Positions 11,502-48,894 of a stretch of DNA of 64,000 nt are shown here, piece after piece (within the stretch, counting starts at the first letter, position 1; each line of letters begins with the position of its first letter). Position numbers and translations under genes: made by a program. Source of the stretch: Vicinamibacteria bacterium (GTDB lineage: Bacteria > Acidobacteriota > Vicinamibacteria > Fen-336); contig JAMQGV010000010.1 of assembly GCA_025994075.1 (NCBI GenBank), forward strand, positions 1 through 64,000. The letters are read 5' to 3'. Under the pieces are notes generated by a model. That model made no database searches, was not told the DNA's origin, and saw only the letters and a list, made by a program, of their open reading frames with translations.

Positions 11502-12074
11502 ATGGGACAGGTCACCCAGTTGCTGATGGCCCGCGATGCCGGAGACCGCGAGGCCTTCGACCGCCTGGTTCCGCTCGTCTACGACGAACTGCGGCGCATC
11601 GCGCGGCGCCAGCTTCGTCGGCGCAGTCCGCAGCAGACGCTCGACAGCTCCGGCCTCGTCCACGAGGCCTGGCTCAAGCTGGCCGGGGCCCAGCGCCTCC
11701 GCGTCAACGACCATCCGCACTTCCTGGCCGTGGCCGCCACCGCGATGCGGCAGGTGCTGATCGATCGCGCGCGGGGGAGGCTGCGGGTCAAGCGGGGAGC
11801 TGGCGCCGCGACCGCGTCCCTCGACGGCGTCGGTGGCGCTGGGGACGCGACCGATCCCGAGTGGCTGCTCGACGTGGACCGCGCGCTCGACGCCCTCGGC
11901 CGGCGCGAGCCGCGCCTCGCCCGCGTCTTCGAGTGTCGCTTCTTCGCCGGCCTCGGCGAAGACGAGACCGCCACGGCGCTCGGCCTCTCGCTGCGGAGCG
12001 TGCAGCGGGACTGGATGCGGGCGCGCGCCTGGCTGCGGGCTGCGCTCGAGGGCGAGGCCGGAGCCCTGTCGTGA
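11502..12074 (+). CDS. ECF RNA polymerase sigma factor, TIGR02999-like
   Basis: This 190-residue sigma-70 family factor has region 2 (FDRLVPLVYDELRRIARRQL, then SSGLVHEAWLKL) and region 4 (ETATALGLSLRSVQRDWMRARAWL). The wording of these helices matches the TIGR02999/ECF group common in Acidobacteria and Planctomycetes, which typically sits beside Ser/Thr kinases. No anti-sigma gene is adjacent. The kinase gene begins 68 bases downstream, so control by phosphorylation is plausible (inference). The start at ATG 11502 follows a short leader without a strong Shine-Dalgarno. Confidence 0.9.
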   Translation: MGQVTQLLMARDAGDREAFDRLVPLVYDELRRIARRQLRRRSPQQTLDSSGLVHEAWLKLAGAQRLRVNDHPHFLAVAATAMRQVLIDRARGRLRVKRGAGAATASLDGVGGAGDATDPEWLLDVDRALDALGRREPRLARVFECRFFAGLGEDETATALGLSLRSVQRDWMRARAWLRAALEGEAGALS

Positions 12075-12141
12075 GCGAGAGGCAGGCCAGCGCACGGGCC
12101 CGGCTTCGCGACGCGCTGCCCGCCCGGCACGAAGCGAGCCG

Positions 12142-15009
12142 ATGACCCGCGATGGCGCGGAGTGGGCGCGGCTCGACGCGCTGCTCGAGGCCGCGCTCGA
12201 CTTGCCGCAGGCGGAGCGGCGACAGTGGCTGGACCGTGCGTGCGCCGGCGACCCCGACACCCGCGCCGCGCTCGAACGCCTGCTGAAGCACGCGGAGGCC
12301 GACACCGGGCCGATCCAGCCCGGCGCTGCCCTGGAGTCGAGCGCTCATGCCCCGTCTTCGTCAGGCGATGGAGCACTGGCCCCCGGCGACCGGCTCGGGC
12401 GCTACGAGATCGTCTCGCTGCTCGGCTCGGGCGGCATGGGCCACGTGTACCGCGCCGTCGATCCTTCGCTGGGGCGCGAGGTCGCCATCAAGGCGGTTTC
12501 CGGCGCGTTGCACGGGGACGCGGCCAGCCTGCGCCGCTTCGAGCGGGAGGCCCGCGTCCTCGCCGCCCTGAACCACCCCGGCATCGCCACGATCTACGGC
12601 TTCGAGCAACTCGGGGGCGTGCCGTACCTCGTGCTCGAACTCGTCGCCGGCGAAACCCTCGGGGACCGGCTGGCGAAAGGCCGCCTGCCCGTCGCGGAGG
12701 CCGTGGCCATCGCCCGCCAGGTCGCGGAGGCGCTGGAGGAGGCCCATCGGCAAGGCGTGGTGCACCGCGACCTGAAGCCGTCGAACGTGATGCTGACGCC
12801 CGAGGGCCGCGTCAAGCTGCTCGACTTCGGGCTTGCGAAGTCGCCGGAGCCGGGGATCTCGGACCAGGCCCGCACGCTCACCGGGGTGATCGTCGGCACC
12901 GCGCCCTACATGAGCCCCGAGCAGGTCCGGGCCGAGGTCGTGGACGAACGGGCGGACGTCTGGGCGTTCGGGTGCGTGTCGTACGAGATGCTCACTGGCC
13001 GCCGTGCGTTCGCGGCGAGCCAGGTGCCGGACATCCTGGCTTCCGTGCTCCGCGACGAGCCCGACTGGGCCGCGCTGCCGAGCGAGACGCCGCCGGCCCT
13101 CCGTCGCCTGCTCGAGCGCTGCCTCCGCAAGGTGCCGCGGGAGCGGTTGCAGGCCATGGGCGACGCCCGTCTCGAGTTGTCGGAGCTCGAGGCGGCTTCG
13201 CCGAACGCGGCGCGCGACGACGCTCGGATGCGGCGTCGCGTGGTCGCCGTCGTCGGGCTGCTGATCGTCGCGCTCACGGTGCGAAGGCCCTCGCCGCCTC
13301 CGCGCGTGCTGCAACTGAGCCTGGATCTGCCGCCGCAGCTCGCACTCGACGAACGCTTCGCAGCGCCGTTCGCGCTCTCGCCCGATGGCGCGAGGCTCGC
13401 GCTCGTGGCTGTCGAGGACGGGCGCTCGCGCCTCTTCGTCCGCGAGATCGACGAGATCACCCCCCGCCGCGTCGGCGGCGTCGACTCCGCCTGGCAGCCG
13501 TTCTTCTCCCCCGACGGCCGCTCGATCGCGTACTTCGACGACGGCAAGCTGTTTCGCGTCCCGGTCGAGGGTGGCCGGCCGGTCCTGATCACGGCGGTCA
13601 CGGTCAATCCCCGCGGCGCGAGCTGGGCGCCCGACGGGACGATCGTGCTCGCGCCGTCGCAGACGTCCGGCCTCGTGCGCGTCGCGGACGGCGGCGGAGC
13701 AGTCCGTCCCCTCACCGAGCTGACCGCGTCGCGTGGGGAAGAGACGCACCGCTGGCCCCAGGTCCTGCCCGACGGCCGTCACGTGCTGTTCACCGTCGTC
13801 GAGCAGGACGCATCCTTCGACGACGGCGAGTTGCAGGTGGCGTCGCTGGCCACCGGCGAGCGTCGCACGGTCCTGAAAGGAGCTGCCTGGGGACGCTGGG
13901 TCGAAAGTGGGCACCTGCTCTTCGCGCGCCACGGCCGGCTCCACGCGGTGCCGTTCGACCTCGAGCGGCTCCAGGCGGGAGGCGCTCCCGTCGTCGTGGT
14001 CGACGGCGTGCGCTACGACGTGAGGAACGGCGGCACCCACGCCGACCTGGCGGGAGATGCGATCGTCTACCAGCCGGCCCGGCCTTCGCTCCCGGAGCGG
14101 CACATCGTCGGCCTCGACGCCGCGGGCGCGATCTCGCGTTTCACCGAGAGGCCGCGCGTGTTCCGTGCCCCACGCGCTTCGCCGGACGGTTCGCGCCTCG
14201 CGGTCGTGATCGGCACGGGCGCCGCCACCGACCTGTGGCTGGTCGACCCGGGCTCGACGTTGACGCGGGTCACCTCCGGCCTCGGCCCGCTCCTGCCGCT
14301 GTGGCGGCCCGACGGCCGCGCCCTGACGGTGTCGGCTCGGGCGGGGGATCGCTGGCGCCTGCTCGACGTCTCGCCGGACGGCGGGCCGCCGCGCGTCCGA
14401 CACGAGAGCGCGCACCGCCTCTATGCCAACGGCTGGACTCCCGACGGCCGCCGCCTCGTGTTCCAGCAGTACCACCCCGACCACGGATGGGACCTGTGGT
14501 CAGTCGCCGAAGGCGGCAGGCCCGAGCCGTTGCTGGCGACGCCGTCCCACGAGGCACGGGCGGCGGTGTCGCGGGACGGGCACTGGATCGCCTACGAGTC
14601 GGACGAGCTGGACGGCCTGGTGGAGATCTACGTGCGATCGTTCCCGGACGGCGAGCGCAAGCTCCGGCTGACGACGTCCGGAGCGCGGCTGCCACGCTGG
14701 GGGGCGCCGGGCGAGCTGTTCTACTGGAGGACTGACGGCCCGGGCTCGCTGCAGAAGGTACGCTGGCGCGCCGAAGGCGACCGGTTCGTCGTGCTCGAGG
14801 ACGCACCGTACTGGCCCGAAAGCGAGTCCACGCGGGCCGCGCGCTCGATTCTCGTCGTCATGAACGACGCGAGCTACGACGTCGACGCGGCCGGCCGCGT
14901 CGTGATGCTCGAGCCCGTGGCTCCGCGTGACGCGGCCCCGCTCGCGCGCCCGGTCGTCGTCTTCGGCTGGGCGCAGGAACTCCGCCGCCGGATGGCGTCC
15001 ACGCCTTAG
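12142..15009 (+). CDS. Ser/Thr protein kinase with beta-propeller sensor
   Basis: This is a 955-residue PknB-type membrane kinase. An N-terminal helical region (1-85) precedes the kinase domain: glycine loop GSGGMGHVY (95-103), K117 in VAIK, HRDLK (208-212) and DFG at D228. One membrane helix (about 365-381) links to a C-terminal TolB/WD40-like propeller (about 390-940) with repeated SPDG and APDG blades. All catalytic residues are kept. It follows the ECF sigma gene and precedes a secreted lyase gene, suggesting a sensor-kinase/sigma module that could control that lyase (inference). Confidence 0.92.
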   Translation: MTRDGAEWARLDALLEAALDLPQAERRQWLDRACAGDPDTRAALERLLKHAEADTGPIQPGAALESSAHAPSSSGDGALAPGDRLGRYEIVSLLGSGGMGHVYRAVDPSLGREVAIKAVSGALHGDAASLRRFEREARVLAALNHPGIATIYGFEQLGGVPYLVLELVAGETLGDRLAKGRLPVAEAVAIARQVAEALEEAHRQGVVHRDLKPSNVMLTPEGRVKLLDFGLAKSPEPGISDQARTLTGVIVGTAPYMSPEQVRAEVVDERADVWAFGCVSYEMLTGRRAFAASQVPDILASVLRDEPDWAALPSETPPALRRLLERCLRKVPRERLQAMGDARLELSELEAASPNAARDDARMRRRVVAVVGLLIVALTVRRPSPPPRVLQLSLDLPPQLALDERFAAPFALSPDGARLALVAVEDGRSRLFVREIDEITPRRVGGVDSAWQPFFSPDGRSIAYFDDGKLFRVPVEGGRPVLITAVTVNPRGASWAPDGTIVLAPSQTSGLVRVADGGGAVRPLTELTASRGEETHRWPQVLPDGRHVLFTVVEQDASFDDGELQVASLATGERRTVLKGAAWGRWVESGHLLFARHGRLHAVPFDLERLQAGGAPVVVVDGVRYDVRNGGTHADLAGDAIVYQPARPSLPERHIVGLDAAGAISRFTERPRVFRAPRASPDGSRLAVVIGTGAATDLWLVDPGSTLTRVTSGLGPLLPLWRPDGRALTVSARAGDRWRLLDVSPDGGPPRVRHESAHRLYANGWTPDGRRLVFQQYHPDHGWDLWSVAEGGRPEPLLATPSHEARAAVSRDGHWIAYESDELDGLVEIYVRSFPDGERKLRLTTSGARLPRWGAPGELFYWRTDGPGSLQKVRWRAEGDRFVVLEDAPYWPESESTRAARSILVVMNDASYDVDAAGRVVMLEPVAPRDAAPLARPVVVFGWAQELRRRMASTP

Positions 15010-34268: not shown

Positions 34269-37148
34269 CTAGAAGCTCAGCTTGACGCCGACCTGGGCCT
34301 GCCGCTGCTGGTAGCCGCCGATGCCGGCGAACTCGGCCGGGATCGGGGTGGTCGGGTTGCCCGCGGTGTCGACGGCGACCACGCGGTTGACCGTGGCCAC
34401 GTTCTCCGTGTTGAAGATGTTCTTGGCCTCGACGAACAGCTCGGCGCGGACGCGGTCCGTGAAGCGCACGAAGCGCACGTAGCGGGCGTCGACGTTGAAC
34501 ACGCGGCCGAGGCGGCCGGTGTTGCGGTCGACGCCGACGGGCCGGTCGTTCTGCACGCCGTCGTTGTTGAGGTCGCGGTTGGCGCGGATGTTGAACGGCA
34601 GCCCCGAGTTGAGCTGGACGATGAAGCCGAGCTGGTTGTCGTTGAGCAGCGCGGCACCGAAGCCGTCACCCTCGACCTTGGGCTGGATCAGCGCCGAGGC
34701 GACCAGGGTGTGGGTCTGGTTGAACACGGTGACGCCCTTGTCGCGGTCCAGGTTGGTGGGGTCGGAGACGCGGTCGTCGATCGAGCCGACCACGTAGGTG
34801 CCGGTCAGCGGCGCGTTGTCCTCGCCCTTGGCCAGCGTGTAGGTCGCCTGGAACTGCCAGCCGTGGCTCATCCGCTTGTTGACCGTGAAGGTCATCGCGT
34901 TGTAGGTCGACTCGCCGATCGACTGGAACATGTCGATCGCGCCGAACGCCGCGTTCGGGCGGGTGGTCGAGAAGATCGGCCGGCCGTCCGCCAGCGTCGC
35001 GCCGGAGGGCGCCAGGTTCTGGTCGATCAGCACCGGCATGTTGCGGCCGATCGAGTTGACGAAGCCGACCGAGACCGCGAGGTCGCTGGTCAGCGCGCGC
35101 TCGATCTGGACGTTGGTCAGGATCGAGTACTGGGTCGAGAAGTCCGGGTCCATCACCACGATGCTCTGGCGCGGGCGCACGAAGCCCGGCGGCAGGTTGC
35201 CCATCGTGCCCGGGAAGGCGGGAGCGCCGGCGTCGGTCGGCCGGATCGTGACCGAGAAGGTCCGCGGGTCGCCGTTGCGCTGGATCGAGTCCTCGTAGAA
35301 GTTGAGCAGCGGCGGTTCGTACATCACGCCCGTGGAAGCGCGCAGGACGGTGCGCTGGGCGTCGTCGAGCGTCCACGAGAAGCCGATCCGCGGCGCGAAG
35401 TTGTTCTTGTCGACCTTGAACTCGTTCGAGTACGGGTTGGCCGCGAACGGCCGGGCGTCCGGCACCTGGAACAGGTCGTAGCGCAGGCCGTAGAGGAGCT
35501 TGAAGTTCGGCGTCAGCCGGAAATCGTCCTGCACGAAGAAGCCGAGGAAGCTCGACTTGTACTCGACCCGCGGGTCGCCGACCAGCTCGGCGTAGGTCGA
35601 GTAGGCCCGCGGGTTGGCGCCCGAGCGCGCCGCCTGGTACGCGGCGGTGTTGGCGAACGTGTAGAGCTGGAACATCGCGTTCTCGCGCGAGTCGTCGACG
35701 AACTGGGCGTCGAAGCCGAGCTTCACGTTGTGGCGGCCGCGCACGATCGTGAAGTTGTCGATCACCTGCCAGATGCCCTGGTTGAAGTCGAAGCCGGCCT
35801 GCGAGACGGTGTCGATCGGGCCGCCGAAGTTGGCGACGCCGGAAACCGTGATCGCCGGGCCGGTGCCCGAGCCGTCGGACGCCGTGCGGAACTGGTGGCG
35901 GCGGGCGTACTGCACGCGCAGCTCGTTGAGCTTGTCGGGCCCGAGCGTCGAGATCAGCTGCATCGAGACCGAGTCCATCCGGTCGTTGAAGTCGGTCGCG
36001 CGCTGGATCGTGTTGAGGCCGCCGCCGATGTTGTAGGGCGACTCGTTCTTGAAGAAGAAGTAGCGGCCCGTCAGCTTGTGCTTCGGCGAGAGCTGGTGGT
36101 CGATCTTGCCGAGGAAGAAGTGGACCTTCTGGGCCGCCGGGATCACGCCGTCCTGCGAGACCTGCTCCGGGGTCAGGCCCAGCGCGGCCGCGTTGGCCTG
36201 GGTCACGCTGACCGTGCGGTCGGCGGAGAGGTCGCGGTCGACGAACTCGTAGCCGAGGTAGAAGTGGGTCTTGTCCTTCTGGATCGGGCCGCCGAGGGTG
36301 GCCGTCCAGTTGTTGACGTAGGTGTCGGGCTTGCGCGCGGTCGGCGAGAGGAAGAACGGCTTGTCCGACATCGCCTTGCGGCGGAAGCGGAAGCTGGCCG
36401 AGCCGGTCAGCTCGTTGGTGCCCGAGGGGGTGACCGCGTTGTAGACCATGCCGGTGGTGTGGCCGAACTCGGGGGCGAAGCCGGAGGTGATCACCTTCAC
36501 CTCGCGCACCATGATCTCGGAGGTCGGCAGCAGGCGCAGGCCGGCGCGGTCCTTCTCGGTGTTGGTGTTGCCGTCGATCTGGTAGTTGGTGCGCATCTGG
36601 GTGCCGTTGGCGTTGATGCGCGGCACCCCGAACTCCTCGTTCTCGTAGCCGGTGACGTTGGCCTGCAGGAACGCGAAGTTGTAGGGGTTGCGCGAGACGA
36701 GCGGCAGGTTCTTGATCTCGTTCTCGCCGATCGTGCGGCCAAGGTCGATCTTGCCGGGCTCGGCGACCGGGGCCTCGGCGGAGACCGAGACGACCTCCTC
36801 GATGCCGCCGACCTCCAGCGAGAAGTTGATCTGCGCCGTCTGGCCGGCCCGCAGCGTCAGGCCCGTGCGCTCGATCGCCTTGAAGCCCGAAAGCTCGGCC
36901 TTCACCTTGTAGGTGCCGAGCGGCAGCAGCAGCGCCCGGTAGCTGCCGTCGCCGCCGGTGGCGACCGTGCGGCTGGTGCCGGTGTCGACGTTGGTCACGG
37001 TCACGTTCGCGCCCGGCAGCGCGGCGCCGGTCGTGTCGCGGACGAGGCCCTCGATGGCGCCGTTGGCGGCGGTCGACTGGGCCTGCACGGGTGTGGCGAG
37101 GAACGCGGCCGTCACGGCCGCCAGTCCCGCGCGCAGCAACTTCGTCAT
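34269..37148 (-). CDS. TonB-dependent receptor, Oar-like
   Basis: This 959-residue outer-membrane receptor has a signal peptide (1-24), a carboxypeptidase-regulatory-like domain (about 28-115), a plug (about 125-240) and a large beta-barrel to the C-terminus, which ends in Phe (VGVKLSF). No lipobox is seen. Motifs NPYNFAFLQANVTG and ITSGFAPEFGHTTG match the Oar-like group common in Acidobacteria. AAGGAGG lies 12 bases before ATG 37148. It probably imports polymers or siderophores in a TonB-dependent way. No SusD-like or TonB gene is adjacent. Confidence 0.92.
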   Translation of the reverse strand: MTKLLRAGLAAVTAAFLATPVQAQSTAANGAIEGLVRDTTGAALPGANVTVTNVDTGTSRTVATGGDGSYRALLLPLGTYKVKAELSGFKAIERTGLTLRAGQTAQINFSLEVGGIEEVVSVSAEAPVAEPGKIDLGRTIGENEIKNLPLVSRNPYNFAFLQANVTGYENEEFGVPRINANGTQMRTNYQIDGNTNTEKDRAGLRLLPTSEIMVREVKVITSGFAPEFGHTTGMVYNAVTPSGTNELTGSASFRFRRKAMSDKPFFLSPTARKPDTYVNNWTATLGGPIQKDKTHFYLGYEFVDRDLSADRTVSVTQANAAALGLTPEQVSQDGVIPAAQKVHFFLGKIDHQLSPKHKLTGRYFFFKNESPYNIGGGLNTIQRATDFNDRMDSVSMQLISTLGPDKLNELRVQYARRHQFRTASDGSGTGPAITVSGVANFGGPIDTVSQAGFDFNQGIWQVIDNFTIVRGRHNVKLGFDAQFVDDSRENAMFQLYTFANTAAYQAARSGANPRAYSTYAELVGDPRVEYKSSFLGFFVQDDFRLTPNFKLLYGLRYDLFQVPDARPFAANPYSNEFKVDKNNFAPRIGFSWTLDDAQRTVLRASTGVMYEPPLLNFYEDSIQRNGDPRTFSVTIRPTDAGAPAFPGTMGNLPPGFVRPRQSIVVMDPDFSTQYSILTNVQIERALTSDLAVSVGFVNSIGRNMPVLIDQNLAPSGATLADGRPIFSTTRPNAAFGAIDMFQSIGESTYNAMTFTVNKRMSHGWQFQATYTLAKGEDNAPLTGTYVVGSIDDRVSDPTNLDRDKGVTVFNQTHTLVASALIQPKVEGDGFGAALLNDNQLGFIVQLNSGLPFNIRANRDLNNDGVQNDRPVGVDRNTGRLGRVFNVDARYVRFVRFTDRVRAELFVEAKNIFNTENVATVNRVVAVDTAGNPTTPIPAEFAGIGGYQQRQAQVGVKLSF

Positions 37149-37278: not shown

Positions 37279-38403
37279 TCAGGAGGCCGACAGGACCCTT
37301 TCGTACAGCCGCTCGTAGCGGCTGACCACGCGATCGGCGCCGAACAGCGCCGCGGCCCGCCGCCGCCCGGCTTCGCCCAGCTCGCGCCGGCGCTCGTCGT
37401 CCTTGAGGATCTCGGCGACCCGTGCTGCCATGCCCTCGACGTCGCCGACCGGCAGCAGGTACCCGGTCTCGGCGTGCTTGACCAGCTCGGGCAGGCCGCC
37501 CTGGTCGGTGCCGACGACCGGCACCGCGCAGGCCATCGCCTCCAGCGCCGACTGGCCGAACGACTCGATCTCGGAGGGAATGAGGAACACGTCGGCCATG
37601 CCCGCGATCTCGGAGGTGTCGTCCTGCTGGCCGAGGAAGCGGACCCGGTCGGCGACACCGAGCCGCCGCGCCAGCGCCCGCGCCGCCGAGCGCTCGGGCC
37701 CCTCGCCGACCAGCAGCAGCGTGGAAGGCACCTCGCGCTGGACCCGCTCGAAGATGCGGATCACGTCCAGCACCCGCTTGCCCGGCTGGAAGTTCGAGGC
37801 GTGCAGCAGCAGCCGGTCGCCGGGCGAGCAGAACGCGGTCTCGTCCTTGTAGGCGCGGGTGGGACAGTAGGCGCCGGTGTCGACGAAGTTCGGAACCACC
37901 TCGATCGGCCGCGTGACGCCCAGCTCCTCGAGCGTCTCCCGGCGCAGGAACTCGGAGACCGCGGTGACGGCGTCCGAGCGCTCGATCCCGAAGCGGGTGA
38001 TCTCCGCGAACGAGGCGTCTTCGCCGACCAGCGTGGTGTCGGTCCCGTGCAGCGTGGTCACCAGCCGCGGCGCCTTCGGGCCCAGCATCTCGCGGGCGAG
38101 GTGGGCGGCGATCGCGTGCGGCATCGCGTAGTGGACGTGGAACAGGTCGAGCGAGGCCTCGCGCGCCACCTCGCACAGCTTGGCGGCCAGCGCCAGCTCG
38201 TGTGGCGGGTGCTCGAACAGCGCGCGCCCGGCGAGGTCGACCTCGTGGGTGCGGATGTTCTCGTGGAAGTCGGCCAGCCGGAACGGCAGCCGGTACGACA
38301 CGACGTGCACCGAGTGGCCGCGTCGGGCCAGGTGCTTGGCGAGTTCGGCGGCGACGCCGCCGGAGCCGCCGACGGTGGGGTAGAGCGCGATGCCGATGTT
38401 CAT
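37279..38403 (-). CDS. bshA: N-acetyl-alpha-D-glucosaminyl L-malate synthase
   Basis: BshA is the first enzyme of bacillithiol synthesis, joining UDP-GlcNAc to L-malate. This 374-residue GT4 protein has the specific N-terminal ALYPTVGGSGGVAAELA motif, the malate-binding VHYAMPHA and TTLHGTDTTLVG segments, and the C-terminal donor motif PSEIESFGQSALEAMA. Neighbouring bshC overlaps by 4 bases, which supports the call. The deacetylase gene (bshB) is not in this window. Confidence 0.92.
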   Translation of the reverse strand: MNIGIALYPTVGGSGGVAAELAKHLARRGHSVHVVSYRLPFRLADFHENIRTHEVDLAGRALFEHPPHELALAAKLCEVAREASLDLFHVHYAMPHAIAAHLAREMLGPKAPRLVTTLHGTDTTLVGEDASFAEITRFGIERSDAVTAVSEFLRRETLEELGVTRPIEVVPNFVDTGAYCPTRAYKDETAFCSPGDRLLLHASNFQPGKRVLDVIRIFERVQREVPSTLLLVGEGPERSAARALARRLGVADRVRFLGQQDDTSEIAGMADVFLIPSEIESFGQSALEAMACAVPVVGTDQGGLPELVKHAETGYLLPVGDVEGMAARVAEILKDDERRRELGEAGRRRAAALFGADRVVSRYERLYERVLSAS

Positions 38404-40031
38404 GGGCGGCCCCCCTGGAGCCAGCAGACCTGGTGGCCGCGGGCGAACGGGTCGAGCCGCTCGCGCAGCACGTCGACGAGCCCGGGACCGTGGCGGGCCA
38501 CCAGGCCGAGCAGGCCGAGGCCGCGCTCCTGCGGCGCGCCGCCCGGCAGCAGCGCGTCGCGGGTGCGGCGCAGCCGCTCGGCGCGGCCCTGGTCGCGCTT
38601 CTTGAGCGCGCGGGTCGCCTTCTCGTGGAGGCTGTCGATCTGGTGCAGCGCGCGGCCGCGGGCCGAGTCGGCCGCGGCCCGCAAGGTCGGGTCGAGAGCC
38701 GCCAGGCGCTCCTCGACCGTGGCCATTTCCCGGGTCACCGCCTGGCGCACGGCGGTGAAGGCCTCCTCAACGTCCGGGTAGGCCTCGCGCGCCCAGCGCG
38801 TGACCAGCGCCTCGGCGTCGCCCGTCAGGTCGCGCAGTCCGAGCCCCTCGGCGTCGAGGGCGCGGGTCTGGGCGGCCTCGACGACGGTCACGCTCGGCCG
38901 CGGCAGCAGCACCGGCCGCGGCACCCCGTAGTGCGCGTACGAGGGCCCGATCTGGGCGTGGTAGGCGATCTCGGCGGGCCCGCCGACGTAGGCGGCCGTG
39001 GGCAGCAGCAGGTCCTGGGCCAGCGGCCGCAGCAGCACGCCGGGGCTCCAGGCTGCCGGGTCGGCCTCGAGGCGGGCCAGCGCCTCGCCGACGCTCAGCC
39101 GGCGGCCGGTGCCGCGCACCTCGATCAGGTCGCCGTCCGTCGCCAGCGCCCGGCGGGCGCCGCCGTCGACCAGGAACAGGTTGAGGAAGCCGCCGCCGCG
39201 CACCGGCACCTGCTGGTGGTAGCCCGCGGCCTTCAGCCGCTCCCCGGCCTCCAGCGCCAGCGCCGAGCCGGGCGAGCGCTCGGCGATCTCGCGCGCCATC
39301 ACCGGCGCCATCAGCCGCTTCAGGTCCGGGTCGGCCGGGTCGAGCAGGACGAGGTCCGGCAGCAGCGCGCCCAGCCACGCCGCGAAGGCGGCGGACAGCG
39401 ACTGGCCCGGCGCGTAGGCGCGGCGCAACGCGGCGCCGACCTCCTCCCGGTAGGGCGACATCGGCAGCGACGCCAGCGCCTCCTCGACCAGCGGCGCGAT
39501 CGTCTCGTCGAAGAGGATGGCCGAGGCGGGCCGGCCGTCGGGCAGCGCGTGGGGCGCGTAGCGCCAGTCGCGGATCTGGCCGGCCTCGTCGAGCAGCGTG
39601 ACCTGGCGGACCTCGGCGAAGTCGTGGTCGTCCGAGGCGATCCAGAACACCGGCACGCAGGGTCGGCCGCTGCGGGCCTCGATCTCGCGCGCCACGCGCT
39701 GGGCGCCGAGCGCCTTGTAGAGCACGTACAGCGGGCCGCCGAACAGGCCGGCCTGCTGGCCGGTCACGACGGCGCAGGCGCCCGGCTCGGCCAGCCGGCC
39801 GGCCTGCGCGGCCGCGACGGGGTTGCCCCGCAGTTCCTGCTGGCGGACCAGGGCGCGCGCCGCGGCCACCCGCGGGCCGCTCGCCGCAGCCCGCTCGCCG
39901 GCCCGCACGACGGCTTCGAGGTCCCAGGGTCCGTCGTAGAAGCGCGTGGCCTCTGGCCGGCCGGCCAGATAGTCACGGAAGAGCGGCGACGAAGCGGCCG
40001 GAAACGAGTCGAGGACTTCCACGCGCTCCAT
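38400..40031 (-). CDS. bshC: Bacillithiol biosynthesis cysteine-adding enzyme
   Basis: This 543-residue BshC adds Cys to GlcN-malate to finish bacillithiol. Characteristic segments are VVTGQQAGLFGGPLYVLYK, VPVFWIASDDHDFAEV and GPSYAHYGVPRPVLLPR. The ATG at 40031 comes 7 bases after a perfect TATAAT (40044 to 40039), so it is probably translated from a leaderless mRNA. Its stop overlaps the bshA start, forming bshC-bshA. The long upstream frame to 40127 is shadow. Confidence 0.9.
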   Translation of the reverse strand: MERVEVLDSFPAASSPLFRDYLAGRPEATRFYDGPWDLEAVVRAGERAAASGPRVAAARALVRQQELRGNPVAAAQAGRLAEPGACAVVTGQQAGLFGGPLYVLYKALGAQRVAREIEARSGRPCVPVFWIASDDHDFAEVRQVTLLDEAGQIRDWRYAPHALPDGRPASAILFDETIAPLVEEALASLPMSPYREEVGAALRRAYAPGQSLSAAFAAWLGALLPDLVLLDPADPDLKRLMAPVMAREIAERSPGSALALEAGERLKAAGYHQQVPVRGGGFLNLFLVDGGARRALATDGDLIEVRGTGRRLSVGEALARLEADPAAWSPGVLLRPLAQDLLLPTAAYVGGPAEIAYHAQIGPSYAHYGVPRPVLLPRPSVTVVEAAQTRALDAEGLGLRDLTGDAEALVTRWAREAYPDVEEAFTAVRQAVTREMATVEERLAALDPTLRAAADSARGRALHQIDSLHEKATRALKKRDQGRAERLRRTRDALLPGGAPQERGLGLLGLVARHGPGLVDVLRERLDPFARGHQVCWLQGGRP

Positions 40032-40201: not shown

Positions 40202-42847
40202 GTGTGGGTGGGCGAGCAGCATCCGGTTCCGAAGACGATCGGCCGCTACCAGGTGCTGGGGACGATCGGCATCGGCGCGATGGGCGCCGTGTACAAGGCC
40301 TTCGACCCGCTGATCAAGCGCACCCTCGCGATCAAGACGATCCGCCTCGACATCGCGCGGGGCAGCCCCGAGTACAAGCAGTTCCTCGACCGCTTCTACC
40401 ACGAGGCCCGCATCTCGGGCACGCTCGCCCACCCGAGCATCGTCACCCTGTTCGACATCGGCGAGGACGTGGCCGGCCTGCCCTACCTCGCGATGGAGTT
40501 CATCGAGGGCGAGACCGTCGAGAGCATGATCGACCGCGGCGTGCGCTTCCGCCCCGAGAAGGTGATCGGCCTCGCCAGCCAGGTCGCCGCGGCGCTCGAC
40601 TACGCGCACCAGCGCGGCGTCGTGCACCGCGACATCAAGCCCGCCAACCTGATCCTGTTCGAGCAGGACCGGGTCAAGGTGATGGACTTCGGCATCGCCA
40701 AGCTGGCCGGCTCGGAACTGACCCAGGCCGGCCAACTGCTCGGCACGCCCTCGTACATGAGCCCCGAGCAGGCGATGGGCGAGAAGCTCGACGGCCGCAG
40801 CGACATCTTCTCGCTCGGCGTCGTCTGCTTCGAGATGCTCTCGGGCGAGCAGCCGTTCGCCGGCAACAACGTGACCTCGATCCTGTACCGGCTGGTGCAC
40901 ATGCCGCCGGCGCAGCCGCAGAACCTCGAGCTCAACGGGCTGGTGCCGCAGAAGTGGCACGAGGTGTTCTCGCGGGTGCTGGCCAAGAAGCCGGCCGACC
41001 GCTACCCGACCGCGGCCGAGTTCGTGCAGGACCTCGAGCTGTGTCTCGGCTCCTGGTTCTCGGCGCTGCCCGGCGGGATCGACGACCTCGCCGATCCCGG
41101 CGAGCGCACGATGCTCGACGAGGGCGGCTTCGGGGACGCGGTGCCGCTGATCCACGGGTCCGCGCCGGCCGCGCCGCCGGCCGCCCACTTCGACCCGCTC
41201 ACCGACCCCTCGGGCGAGATCGCTGCGCTCGCGCCGCCGGTCGAAGACACCCACTCGACCACGGAACTGGGCACGAAGCGGGCACCGGCGCCGCCGCCGC
41301 TGCCGGGCGAGCGCCGCACCGAGCCGCTGCCCGCCACCTCGGACGACACGGAGTCGCCCCGCACCGAGGCCCTCGGAGCCGAACCGAGCCCGATCGAGAG
41401 CACGGTGCCGATGCCGCTCGGGGTCCCGGCGGCCGCGGTTCCCGGCGCATCGACGGTGCCGCTGCCGGTGTTCGCGCCCGAGCGGCGAGGGGCGCGGCCG
41501 CCTGCGCCGCCGCCGCTGCCGGCCGAGGCGGGAGCCCTGGGCGACGAGCCCAGCACCGTGACGATCCGCGCCCGCGCCGCCGCGCCGGCCGCGCCGGCCT
41601 CCGAAGACGACGAGGACGCCATCGAGCGCACCGTGATCGACCGCGCCGAGTCGATCGCCGAGCCGGCCGCGGCGACGACGGCGATGCCCGCGGGTGAGCC
41701 GCCGCCCGACGCGGCCGAAGCGACCGTGGCGATGGTCGCGGGCGAGCCGGCGCCCGGCCCGGCCGAGGCGACGGTGGCGATGCCCGCGGCCGCGCCGCCG
41801 ACCACCCGCATGCCCGCCGCGGGTGCCGCGGACGCGACGTGGATCGCACCTGCAGCTTCGGCGCCGCCGGCTGTCGCGCGGCCCGCACTGCCGCCGCCCG
41901 TCGCGCCGCCGCCGCCTCCTCCTCCTCCCCCGGTCGCTGCCGCGCCGCGCCCGCCCGCCGCAGCGCCGCTGGCCCCCCAGCCCACGGTTTCCACCCCGGG
42001 GGCGGGCAATCGCGGGCTGCTGCTCGCCGCCGCCGCGGGCTTCGCCGCGATGACGCTGGGTCTCGTCGGCCTGTTCCTGTTCCGACAGCCCGCTGCGCCG
42101 GGCGCGGAGCCGGGCGCGCCCGCGGCGCTGGCCGCGGGTCTGCGGGTCGAGAGCCAGCCCGGCGGCGCGGCCGTGCGGGTCAACGGCGAGCTCAAGGGCA
42201 CCACCCCGCTCGAGTTGCCGGGCCTGCCGCACGGTCTCTACGAGGTCGAGGTCGAGCTCTCGGGGTACGAGGCGGCGCACGAGAACGTCGCCCTCACCCA
42301 GTCGTCGCCCGCGCGCGCGCTGTCGCTGTCGCTGTCGCGCGTCGTCGTCGCGCCCAACACCGGGCGGCTGGAGGTGGTGACGACGCCCGCGGGGGCGTCG
42401 GTCGAGGTCGACGGCGTCGCGGTCGGCCTGGCGCCGCTGCGCGGCTTTCGCCTGCCCGCGGGCGAGCACGCGCTGAAGCTGTCGCTCGCCGATCACGCGA
42501 CCGTCGAACGCAAGGTCCGGATCGCCGCGGGCGAGACCGAGAAGGTGTCCGCGACGCTCGCGTCGACCCGGGTCCACGAGAACTCGGAGCTCGACGCGAA
42601 GCCGGTCCGCACCCACGCGCCTCCGCCCAAGCTGCCCGCGCAGGACCGGCCGCTGTTCGTCTACGCCGTGCTGACCGTGGGCCTCGACGGCCGCGTCGAG
42701 GACGTCGAGATCCGCGAGGGCGCCGGGCGCGAGCTGGACGACGCGGTGCGCCGCACGGTGAAGGGCTGGCGCTTCGAGCCGGGGCGCCGCCAGGGAGCCG
42801 TCGTGCGCTTCCGCGAGCACATCCGCTTCAAGGTGCCGGTCAAGTAG
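40202..42847 (+). CDS. Ser/Thr kinase fused to PEGA repeats and a TonB C-terminal domain
   Basis: This is an 881-residue membrane kinase. The kinase domain (about 14-270) has K45 in LAIK, HRD at 142-144 and DFG at D162, so it looks active. A long Pro/Ala/Glu linker (about 330-600) leads to one membrane helix (about 604-628). Two PEGA repeats follow (about 647-697 and 721-775), then a TonB_C-like domain from about 800 (VLTVGLDGRVEDVEI, KGWRFEPGR). A kinase ending in a TonB-type domain is unusual. GTG 40208 is an alternative start. FHA protein and signal-peptidase genes follow with tight spacing. Confidence 0.9.
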   Translation: MWVGEQHPVPKTIGRYQVLGTIGIGAMGAVYKAFDPLIKRTLAIKTIRLDIARGSPEYKQFLDRFYHEARISGTLAHPSIVTLFDIGEDVAGLPYLAMEFIEGETVESMIDRGVRFRPEKVIGLASQVAAALDYAHQRGVVHRDIKPANLILFEQDRVKVMDFGIAKLAGSELTQAGQLLGTPSYMSPEQAMGEKLDGRSDIFSLGVVCFEMLSGEQPFAGNNVTSILYRLVHMPPAQPQNLELNGLVPQKWHEVFSRVLAKKPADRYPTAAEFVQDLELCLGSWFSALPGGIDDLADPGERTMLDEGGFGDAVPLIHGSAPAAPPAAHFDPLTDPSGEIAALAPPVEDTHSTTELGTKRAPAPPPLPGERRTEPLPATSDDTESPRTEALGAEPSPIESTVPMPLGVPAAAVPGASTVPLPVFAPERRGARPPAPPPLPAEAGALGDEPSTVTIRARAAAPAAPASEDDEDAIERTVIDRAESIAEPAAATTAMPAGEPPPDAAEATVAMVAGEPAPGPAEATVAMPAAAPPTTRMPAAGAADATWIAPAASAPPAVARPALPPPVAPPPPPPPPPVAAAPRPPAAAPLAPQPTVSTPGAGNRGLLLAAAAGFAAMTLGLVGLFLFRQPAAPGAEPGAPAALAAGLRVESQPGGAAVRVNGELKGTTPLELPGLPHGLYEVEVELSGYEAAHENVALTQSSPARALSLSLSRVVVAPNTGRLEVVTTPAGASVEVDGVAVGLAPLRGFRLPAGEHALKLSLADHATVERKVRIAAGETEKVSATLASTRVHENSELDAKPVRTHAPPPKLPAQDRPLFVYAVLTVGLDGRVEDVEIREGAGRELDDAVRRTVKGWRFEPGRRQGAVVRFREHIRFKVPVK

Positions 42848-43903
42848 GTGGCCCGCCTCGTCATCAACCCCGCCGCGTCCCGTCAGCCCCGCGAGCTGGC
42901 GCTGCCGCGCGCCCCGCTGCTGATCGGCCGCGACCCGTCCAACGACCTGGTGCTGCCCGACGCGATGGTGTCGCGGCGCCACGCGGTGATCGAGTACCGG
43001 GGCGAGGGCTGGGTGCTGCGCGACTGCCAGTCGAGCAACGGCTCGCTGGTGAACGGCGACCGCGTGGAGCAACGCCCGCTGCGCGACGGGGACCTGGTGG
43101 CGATCGGCGGCGCGCGGCTGCTGTTCCGCGACGACGAGCCGCAGGCCGACGGCCCCGGCGCCAAGGTGATCCCGCACCCCTCCTCGCCGCGGCTGCGCTG
43201 TGCCGACTGCGGGGCGATGCTGCGCGCGAACGACGCGTTCTGCCGCGGCTGCGGCGCCAAGCTGGCGCCGGCCCCGATCCAGGCGCGCCTCGTCTGCGCC
43301 GACTGCGGTTCCGTGGTGCCGCTGCCCGCGCGCTTCTGCAACGCCTGCGGCCGCGAGCTGGGGCAGGGCACGGCACCCGTTCCGTCCCCGCCGCGCCCGG
43401 CGTCGCGGGCGGCCGGGCTGTTCGAGCTGCGCCCCGCGCCCCGCCCCCGGCCGGCGGGCCCGCGCCCGGCCCCGCCGCTGCGGCGGGCCGCGGCCGCGGC
43501 TTTCGACTGGGGAGTGGTGGGCGGGGTCGAGGTGCTGCTGCTGTCGCCGGTGCTGCACTACTGGCTGACGCTGCCGCCCGCCCAGGCCGTCGCCGACGTC
43601 CGCTTCACGCCGATCCTCGTCTCGCTCGCGCTGCTGCCGTTGGCGGCGGCGCTGGCCGCGCTCTACTTCGTCCACTTCTGGGGTGTGCGCGGGGCGACGC
43701 CGGGCCAGCGCCTGCTGGGCCTGGCCGTCGTCGACGAAGACGGCCGCGGACCGATCGGGGTGCCGCGCGCGTTCCTGCGGCTGCTCGGCTACACGCTGGC
43801 GCTGGCGCCGCTCGGCGGCGGCTTCGCGGCGGCGCTGTTCGGCGGTCGCGCCCTGCACGACCGGGTCGCCGCGACCCGGGTGGTGCTGAGGGGGGACGCG
43901 TGA
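42848..43903 (+). CDS. FHA domain, zinc-ribbon and RDD membrane protein
   Basis: This 351-residue protein begins directly after the kinase stop. The N-terminal FHA domain (about 1-95) has [14 protein letters not shown] and SSNGSLVN, so it can bind phosphothreonine. Two zinc ribbons follow, each with CxxC pairs ([19 protein letters not shown] and [19 protein letters not shown]). The C-terminal RDD domain has about three membrane helices and the motif [11 protein letters not shown]. It probably docks on the phosphorylated upstream kinase or its targets (inference). Confidence 0.85.
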
Positions 43904-44502
43904 ACGCGACCCAGGAGGCGCCGCTGGACGTGGTGGAGCCGCTGCCGGCCCCCGAGCCGCTGATCGCCGCGCCGCGCCCGCGCCTGGGGCGGTTGCGGGC
44001 CGCGCTGGAGCTGCTGCACGACCTGTCGGTGGCCGTGCTGTTCTGCTTCTTCCTGATCACTTACGTGGGTCAGGCGTTCCGCGTCCAGGGCGCCTCGATG
44101 CAGCCGCTGCTCGAGGACGACGAGCGGATCCTGGTCAACAAGTTCGCCTACCGGCTGGGGCCGATCCGGCGCGGCGACGTCGTGGTGTTCTGGTACCCGC
44201 GCGACCCGGCGGTCTCGTTCATCAAGCGGGTGGTGGGACTGCCGGGCGACGTGGTGGAGCTGCGGCGCGGGCTCGTCCACGTCAACGGGCGCCCGCTCGA
44301 CGAGCCGTGGGTCGCGGCGGAGTTCCGCGGCCACGACAGCGTCGGGCCGGTCGAGGTCGAGCGCGGCCACTACTTCGTGCTCGGCGACCACCGCACGAGC
44401 AGCAACGACAGCCGCGCCTGGGGCGACGTGCCCGAGCGCTACATCTACGGCAAGGCGGTGTTCCGCTTCTGGCCGCTGGGCCGCATCGGCCGCGTGCAGT
44501 AG
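43900..44502 (+). CDS. lepB: Signal peptidase I
   Basis: This 200-residue membrane serine protease cleaves signal peptides of exported proteins. One N-terminal helix is followed by the catalytic Ser (S66 in GASMQPLL) and Lys (K109 in [11 protein letters not shown]), with the later [14 protein letters not shown] box. GTG 43900 overlaps the RDD stop (GTGA). The N-terminal tail of about 40 residues before the helix is longer than in many LepB proteins. It is placed with the kinase/FHA genes, then carA starts 41 bases later. Confidence 0.92.
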
Positions 44503-44543
44503 GCGCGGGGCCGGGTACTGGGACTGCAGGGAGGCGAGAGTTG

Positions 44544-45656
44544 ATGATGGCGCGGGAGCGGGCGGTGCTGGCGCTCGAGGACGGCGTGGTCTTCGAGGGG
44601 CGCGCCTACGGGCGGCGGGGGGCGACCACGGGCGAGGTCGTGTTCAACACGGCGCTGGCCGGCTACCAGGAGGTGCTGACTGATCCCTCCTACGCCGGCC
44701 AGATCGTGACCATGACCTACCCCCACATCGGCAACTACGGCGTCAACGACGGCGACCTCGAGTCGACCCGGCCCCAGGTCGCGGGCTTCCTCGTGCGCGA
44801 GCCCGCCCACGTGCACTCCTCCTGGCGCGCCGAGCGCGGGCTCGAGGAGTGGCTCGACGGCCACGGCGTGGTCGGCCTGTGCGACTTCGACACCCGGGCC
44901 CTGACCCGCCACCTGCGCACCGCCGGCGCCAAGCGCGGGGCGATCGCACCGGGCACGGACGCGGTCGCGGCGCTGGCCGCGGCCCGCGCCTCGCGCAACA
45001 TGGTCGGCCTCGACCTCGCCCGCGAGGTGACCTGCGCCGCGCCCTGGCACTTCGAGGGCGGCGGCGAGCGCGGCACGCTGAAGGTCGTGGCCTACGACTT
45101 CGGCGTCAAGCTCAACATCCTGCGGCGGCTGGCCGCCAGCGGCTGCGACGTGACGGTGGTGCCCGCGCAGACCACGGCCGACGAGGTGCTCGCATTGCGC
45201 CCCGACGGCGTGTTCCTCTCCAACGGGCCCGGCGACCCCGAGCCGGTCACCTACGCGGTGGAGGCGGCCAAGCGGCTGATCGACTCGCGCACGCCGGTGT
45301 TCGGCATCTGCCTCGGCCACCAGATCCTCGGCCTCGCCTGTGGCGGCCGCACCTTCAAGCTCAAGTTCGGCCACCGCGGCGGCAACCACCCGGTCCAGCA
45401 CCTGCAGAGCGGCCGAGTGGAGATCACGTCGCAGAACCACGGCTTCGCCGTCGACGCCGCGGTGTTCGAGACCCGCCGCGACCTGGAGCTGACCCACGTC
45501 AACCTCAACGACGGCACGGTCGAGGGCTTCCGGCACCGCGACCTGCCGGTGATGTCGGTGCAGTACCACCCGGAGGCGAGCCCCGGCCCCCACGACTCCC
45601 ACTACCTGTTCGACGCGTTCGTCGCGCTGATGCGCGAGCGCCGTCACGCCGCCTGA
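44544..45656 (+). CDS. carA: Carbamoyl-phosphate synthase, small subunit
   Basis: This 370-residue glutaminase subunit makes ammonia for CarB. The nucleophile is C256 in GICLGHQ, and the triad ends with H342-P-E344 in [12 protein letters not shown]. The N-terminal [11 protein letters not shown] and [11 protein letters not shown] match CarA. ATG 44544 has GGGAGGCGAG upstream; TTG 44541 and ATG 44547 are also possible. It is followed by carB 34 bases later and supplies both arginine and pyrimidine routes. Confidence 0.95.

Positions 45657-45690: not shown

Positions 45691-48890
<3,200 letters not shown>

Positions 48891-48894
<4 letters not shown>

Follow-up and report, generated by a model that had tools for sequence, protein, structure and literature searches.

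We found that the window, a stretch of 64,000 nucleotides from a Vicinamibacteria bacterium, encodes a kinase ending in what is predicted to be a TonB C-terminal domain (TonB_C). Judged by its sequence, the open reading frame is a Hanks-type (PknB-like) Ser/Thr receptor kinase with an active-looking catalytic domain. The evidence on its C-terminal domain favours a module for protein docking that has been put to new use over a direct line from outer-membrane transporters.

A receptor kinase with a TonB-type head

The kinase gene and its predicted parts are as follows.

40202..42847, + strand: Ser/Thr receptor kinase, 881 aa, arranged as kinase, Pro/Ala-rich linker, transmembrane helix (TM), PEGA, PEGA and TonB_C (Pfam, hydropathy)
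40247..41029, + strand: protein kinase domain, aa 16-276, PknB-like, HRDIKPAN and DFG intact (Pfam PF00069, E 6.4e-47; PDB PknB, E 2.3e-57)
42017..42079, + strand: single transmembrane helix, aa 606-626, no His (mean KD 2.25 over 21 residues)
42134..42340, + strand: PEGA domain 1 (Pfam PF08308; own HMM)
42359..42562, + strand: PEGA domain 2 (Pfam PF08308; own HMM)
42593..42844, + strand: TonB_C domain, aa 798-881, Pfam match 42671-42832 (Pfam; AlphaFold2 and structure comparison)

The frame opens with GTG at 40202 and closes with a stop codon at 42845-42847. Its kinase domain aligned over the full length with that of PknB and kept the catalytic Lys (AIK), HRDIKPAN and DFG, which bears out the active-looking Ser/Thr kinase of the first-pass annotation. 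We place this domain inside the cell because a kinase needs ATP. The transmembrane helix (LLLAAAAGFAAMTLGLVGLFL) is followed by approximately 170 residues, including the two PEGA domains (Pfam E 5.6e-28 for the pair), that separate the membrane from TonB_C. The Pfam matches and the position of the helix thus agree with the extracytoplasmic end that had been described, two PEGA repeats and a TonB_C-like domain. Full-length kinase alignment, a single transmembrane helix and an ectodomain made of small repeated domains are shared with the Hanks-type receptor kinases PknB and StkP, whereas the ectodomain is PEGA-PEGA-TonB_C rather than PASTA. The Pfam scan of the kinase revealed no PASTA repeats, and the NCBIfam PASTA-kinase model NF033483 scored 297 bits where 450 are required, which excludes the protein from the PASTA kinases. 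Positions 11761-15006 of the window encode a further Ser/Thr kinase, whose catalytic loop is intact and whose C-terminal part is long; no TonB_C was seen in it.

Two profiles recognized the C-terminal domain. TonB_C (PF03544) matched aa 824-877 with 35.8 bits (cut-off 24.6), and the NCBIfam tonB_Cterm model TIGR01352 gave 32.3 bits (cut-off 27.1). The Pfam match begins after the first 21 positions of the profile. The YP motif in the N-terminal region of the domain, a common feature that the cut-off of the model does not demand, is lost in the genus of the window and kept by most relatives. AlphaFold2 modelling of the 255-residue outer part from seven sequences (the window and six relatives) gave a mean pLDDT of 85.6 and a pTM of 0.51, the latter fitting a flexible packing of domains. 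In Foldseek, the FoxA-bound Pseudomonas TonB domain matched the model with a TM-score of 0.80 by target length. The top match in VIA-align 2 was 6i97_D, Pseudomonas TonB in the FoxA complex (Z 10.8, 2.0 Å, 84 residues), followed by other TonB C-terminal domains, several of them at Z 8.4-9.2 (1u07, Z 9.2; 2gsk, Z 8.8). With TonB domains as its best structural matches, the domain is predicted to have the TonB C-terminal fold, the outcome that the structure check proposed in the first-pass annotation had called for.

Kinase–TonB_C fusions in Acidobacteriota

PEGA and TonB_C were present in all 18 aligned members of the family (Pfam). In a set of 149 genomes from the class, matches over the full length, TonB_C included, came from families f1, to which the window belongs, and f10; in the wider phylum, kinase–TonB_C fusions also occurred in f22, f37 and f50 and were confirmed on loci. 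By these matches the fusion extends to five or more families of Acidobacteriota, and a genome often has multiple paralogues of it, so that relatives of the window do carry the same fusion, as had been suggested for checking. A chance fusion or an assembly artefact was rejected because the fusion recurs in many genomes. In the kinase-domain tree, support was 0.95 for f1 with f10 and 0.97 for f1, f10 and f22; on this phylogeny the family is old, not the product of a single recent fusion. TonB_C was almost always the terminal domain, with 0-3 residues after it in most kinases, and it stayed terminal while the number of PEGA copies ranged from 0 to 2, which suggests that the PEGA domains are spacers. 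A search of plasmids for the ectodomain returned no match. In the open-access literature that we searched, we found no account of kinase–TonB_C fusions, although such an architecture may be on record elsewhere. Bacterial receptor kinases with this TonB-derived head constitute a conserved class.

One kinase of f22 (L092) looks active and closely resembles the window kinase. Its relative L091, a 749-aa frame adjoining signal peptidase I, reads HKN in place of HRD, which breaks the catalytic loop, and keeps DFG and TonB_C. Another frame (L095, 6339-8609) combines a response-regulator receiver domain, a kinase, a weak membrane helix, PEGA and TonB_C.

Conserved neighbours of the kinase

The genes flanking the kinase in the window are listed below.

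37279..38403, − strand: BshA-like glycosyltransferase (Pfam)
38400..40028, − strand: BshC, divergent neighbour marking the locus (Pfam)
42848..43903, + strand: FHA–double zinc ribbon–RDD membrane protein, beginning directly after the kinase stop (Pfam; junction; 17/17 syntenic TonB_C loci)
43900..44502, + strand: signal peptidase I (Peptidase_S26), overlapping the FHA gene (Pfam; 17/17 loci)
44543..45656, + strand: CarA, start approximate (CarA Pfam match in syntenic locus L066)
45691..48894, + strand: CarB (locus comparison)

Genes for the FHA-RDD protein and signal peptidase I lay directly downstream of the kinase in each of the 17 syntenic loci that have TonB_C (L048-L059, L061, L063-L065 and L094; in L055 the FHA-RDD protein was matched in part only). 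Neither was detected in the nine examined loci that lack TonB_C (L066, L067 and L082-L088), in which a kinase-like protein is encoded between bshC and carA. In these nine proteins HRD is replaced by HGA or HGS and DFG by GFG, GLG, GMG or GVG; they are PEGA-PEGA pseudokinases that end after the second PEGA domain. We also considered whether they are orthologues that have lost TonB_C, a relationship that the kinase tree does not support, as they form a separate, long-branch clade; we therefore claim a shared position and not orthology. The bshC–carA interval holds such a pseudokinase in much of the class. Signal peptidase I also adjoins the cross-class relatives L091 and L092. By gene order, the conserved partners of the window kinase are the FHA/zinc-ribbon/RDD protein and signal peptidase I, which together with the kinase make up a testable gene set.

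The nearby TonB-dependent receptor

The first-pass annotation had drawn attention to a TonB-dependent receptor 3 kb from the kinase.

34269..37148, − strand: Oar-like TonB-dependent receptor (CarboxypepD_reg and OMP_b-brl_4), judged incidental (Pfam; 3/17 loci; ubiquitous)

The receptor is real, but it lies on the strand opposite to the kinase, beyond bshA and bshC, and is not a conserved neighbour: a receptor was near the kinase in 3 of the 17 TonB_C loci and in one of the nine loci without TonB_C. PF25183 receptors were found in all 60 tested genomes, with or without such a kinase, and each genome has dozens of candidate receptors, so that we estimate the frequency near the kinase to be roughly that expected by chance. 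Receptor abundance showed no visible relation to TonB_C kinases across the 60 genomes, for which the receptor counts are lower bounds with 13 candidates per genome scored. The neighbouring receptor was accordingly rejected as a functional partner. It has a TonB-box-like stretch before its plug (EEVVSVSAEAP, noted by eye), and the Pfam scan of it revealed no STN signalling domain. FecA–FecR–FecI, a cell-surface signalling system, resembles the present case by analogy only, in that an envelope protein carries information to the cytoplasm; by contrast, the conserved gene set here contains no anti-sigma or sigma factor. The combination of an STN receptor with a linked regulator, by which cell-surface signalling is recognized, was absent from the window locus.

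Evidence on whether TonB_C reaches the outer membrane

In the genome of the window, one more active-looking kinase carries TonB_C (L071, 4416-7688); it has no PEGA domain and only approximately 24 residues between the transmembrane helix and TonB_C. Furthermore, a paralogue clade from four genomes (L080, L081, L097 and L098; support 1.0) combines a kinase with one PEGA domain and TonB_C, all above the Pfam cut-offs, and has no hydrophobic helix: by hydropathy alone, the best 19-residue mean was 0.67-1.13, compared with 1.56-3.06 in the other kinases. TonB_C is therefore predicted to be cytosolic in this clade. As the domain terminates kinases with a predicted location in the envelope and others with a predicted location in the cytosol, its presence alone does not signify contact with the outer membrane.

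In a tree of this short domain, the kinase copies of TonB_C stood apart from 49 other TonB_C domains, with a support of 0.53. The last strand, the partner of TonB boxes in known complexes, had a mean charge of +3.4 in 36 kinase copies and +0.9 in the 49 others, a contrast that is biased because the comparison set consists mostly of best-scoring TonBs; the charge of the whole domain was similar in the two groups. The contrast is for this reason a lead, not proof. Fold and core motifs are common to the window domain and the TonB domain of PF03544, and the window copy differs in sitting on a kinase, in its basic last strand, in having no TonB-type transmembrane helix and, in the genus of the window, in its shortened N-terminal part. 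Together, the short spacer of L071, the clade without a membrane helix, and the tree and charge of TonB_C argue, at the level of sequence, against reach to the outer membrane as a general role of the domain.

TonB_C also occurs in the window genome in two short proteins with a signal-peptide-like start (L004 and L005) and in a TPR-like protein (L006); the domain is therefore not tied to transport. SjdR of Anabaena offers a precedent: although annotated as TonB, it has been argued to have no part in transport and to lack the length needed for the outer membrane (PMC8262864). It is not a kinase, and its conserved region is GltJ/AgmX-like, not a TonB C-terminal domain.

Possible roles of the TonB_C head

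We propose that the TonB_C head is a docking or dimerisation module that controls the kinase, with signalling through the FHA protein, a proposal that we consider about equally likely to be right or wrong. The ectodomain would consist of two PEGA spacers capped by TonB_C, whose last beta strand could be offered to a periplasmic partner, either a peptide strand or another TonB_C head. Binding would alter kinase pairing and autophosphorylation, after which the neighbouring FHA-RDD membrane protein could recognise the phosphothreonine through its FHA domain. TonB_C would have been inherited from TonB-type proteins and would not act as an energy transducer. Its partner is probably some envelope protein and not a TonB-dependent receptor; our guess, from the link to signal peptidase I, is that envelope or secretion status is the input. 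Several points weigh against docking or dimerisation: CarA and CarB also adjoin, and genes of one operon may serve different pathways, the kinase and non-kinase domains separate weakly in the tree, the charge comparison is biased, and the clade without a membrane helix is called from hydropathy. One possible alternative, to which we give a rather low probability, is that TonB_C mainly caps and pairs two kinase ectodomains as a homodimer, with PEGA as the real ligand sensor. Short TonB C-terminal fragments crystallise as dimers (the entries 1ihr and 1qxx, among our search results, are presumably of this kind), PknB-type kinases are activated by pairing, and TonB_C remains constant while the number of PEGA domains varies. 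This last pattern also tells against PEGA as the sensor, since L071 drops PEGA and keeps TonB_C, making PEGA the dispensable part.

The best match of the model is to a receptor-bound TonB, which weighs against docking or dimerisation and fits a direct contact, in which TonB_C would touch the TonB box of an outer-membrane receptor loaded with substrate and the kinase would report this to the cytoplasm. The TonB-box-like stretch of the window receptor and the spacer, which at full stretch could span much of the periplasm, are consistent with such contact. Phosphorylation of proteins would then directly reflect receptor occupancy, and a kinase would carry the signal from the outer membrane to the cytoplasm, as a counterpart of cell-surface signalling. 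We consider it improbable, given receptors that are ubiquitous and seldom near the kinase, paralogues with a short spacer or no membrane helix, the basic last strand and a YP region missing from the genus of the window. The direct signal from an outer-membrane transporter to a cytosolic kinase, as first suggested for this gene, is thus unsupported. Docking or dimerisation also has to be set against a modified energy transducer, a kinase using the force of ExbB/ExbD through TonB_C, which we rejected as very unlikely indeed: ExbD genes are present in the genome, but only on contigs C31 and C5 in our ExbD search and not near the kinase gene, and the kinase helix has no TonB-type His. By contrast, the canonical TonBs of the window genome (L001 and L003) have this His in their transmembrane helices, and L001 is encoded approximately 1 kb from ExbD.
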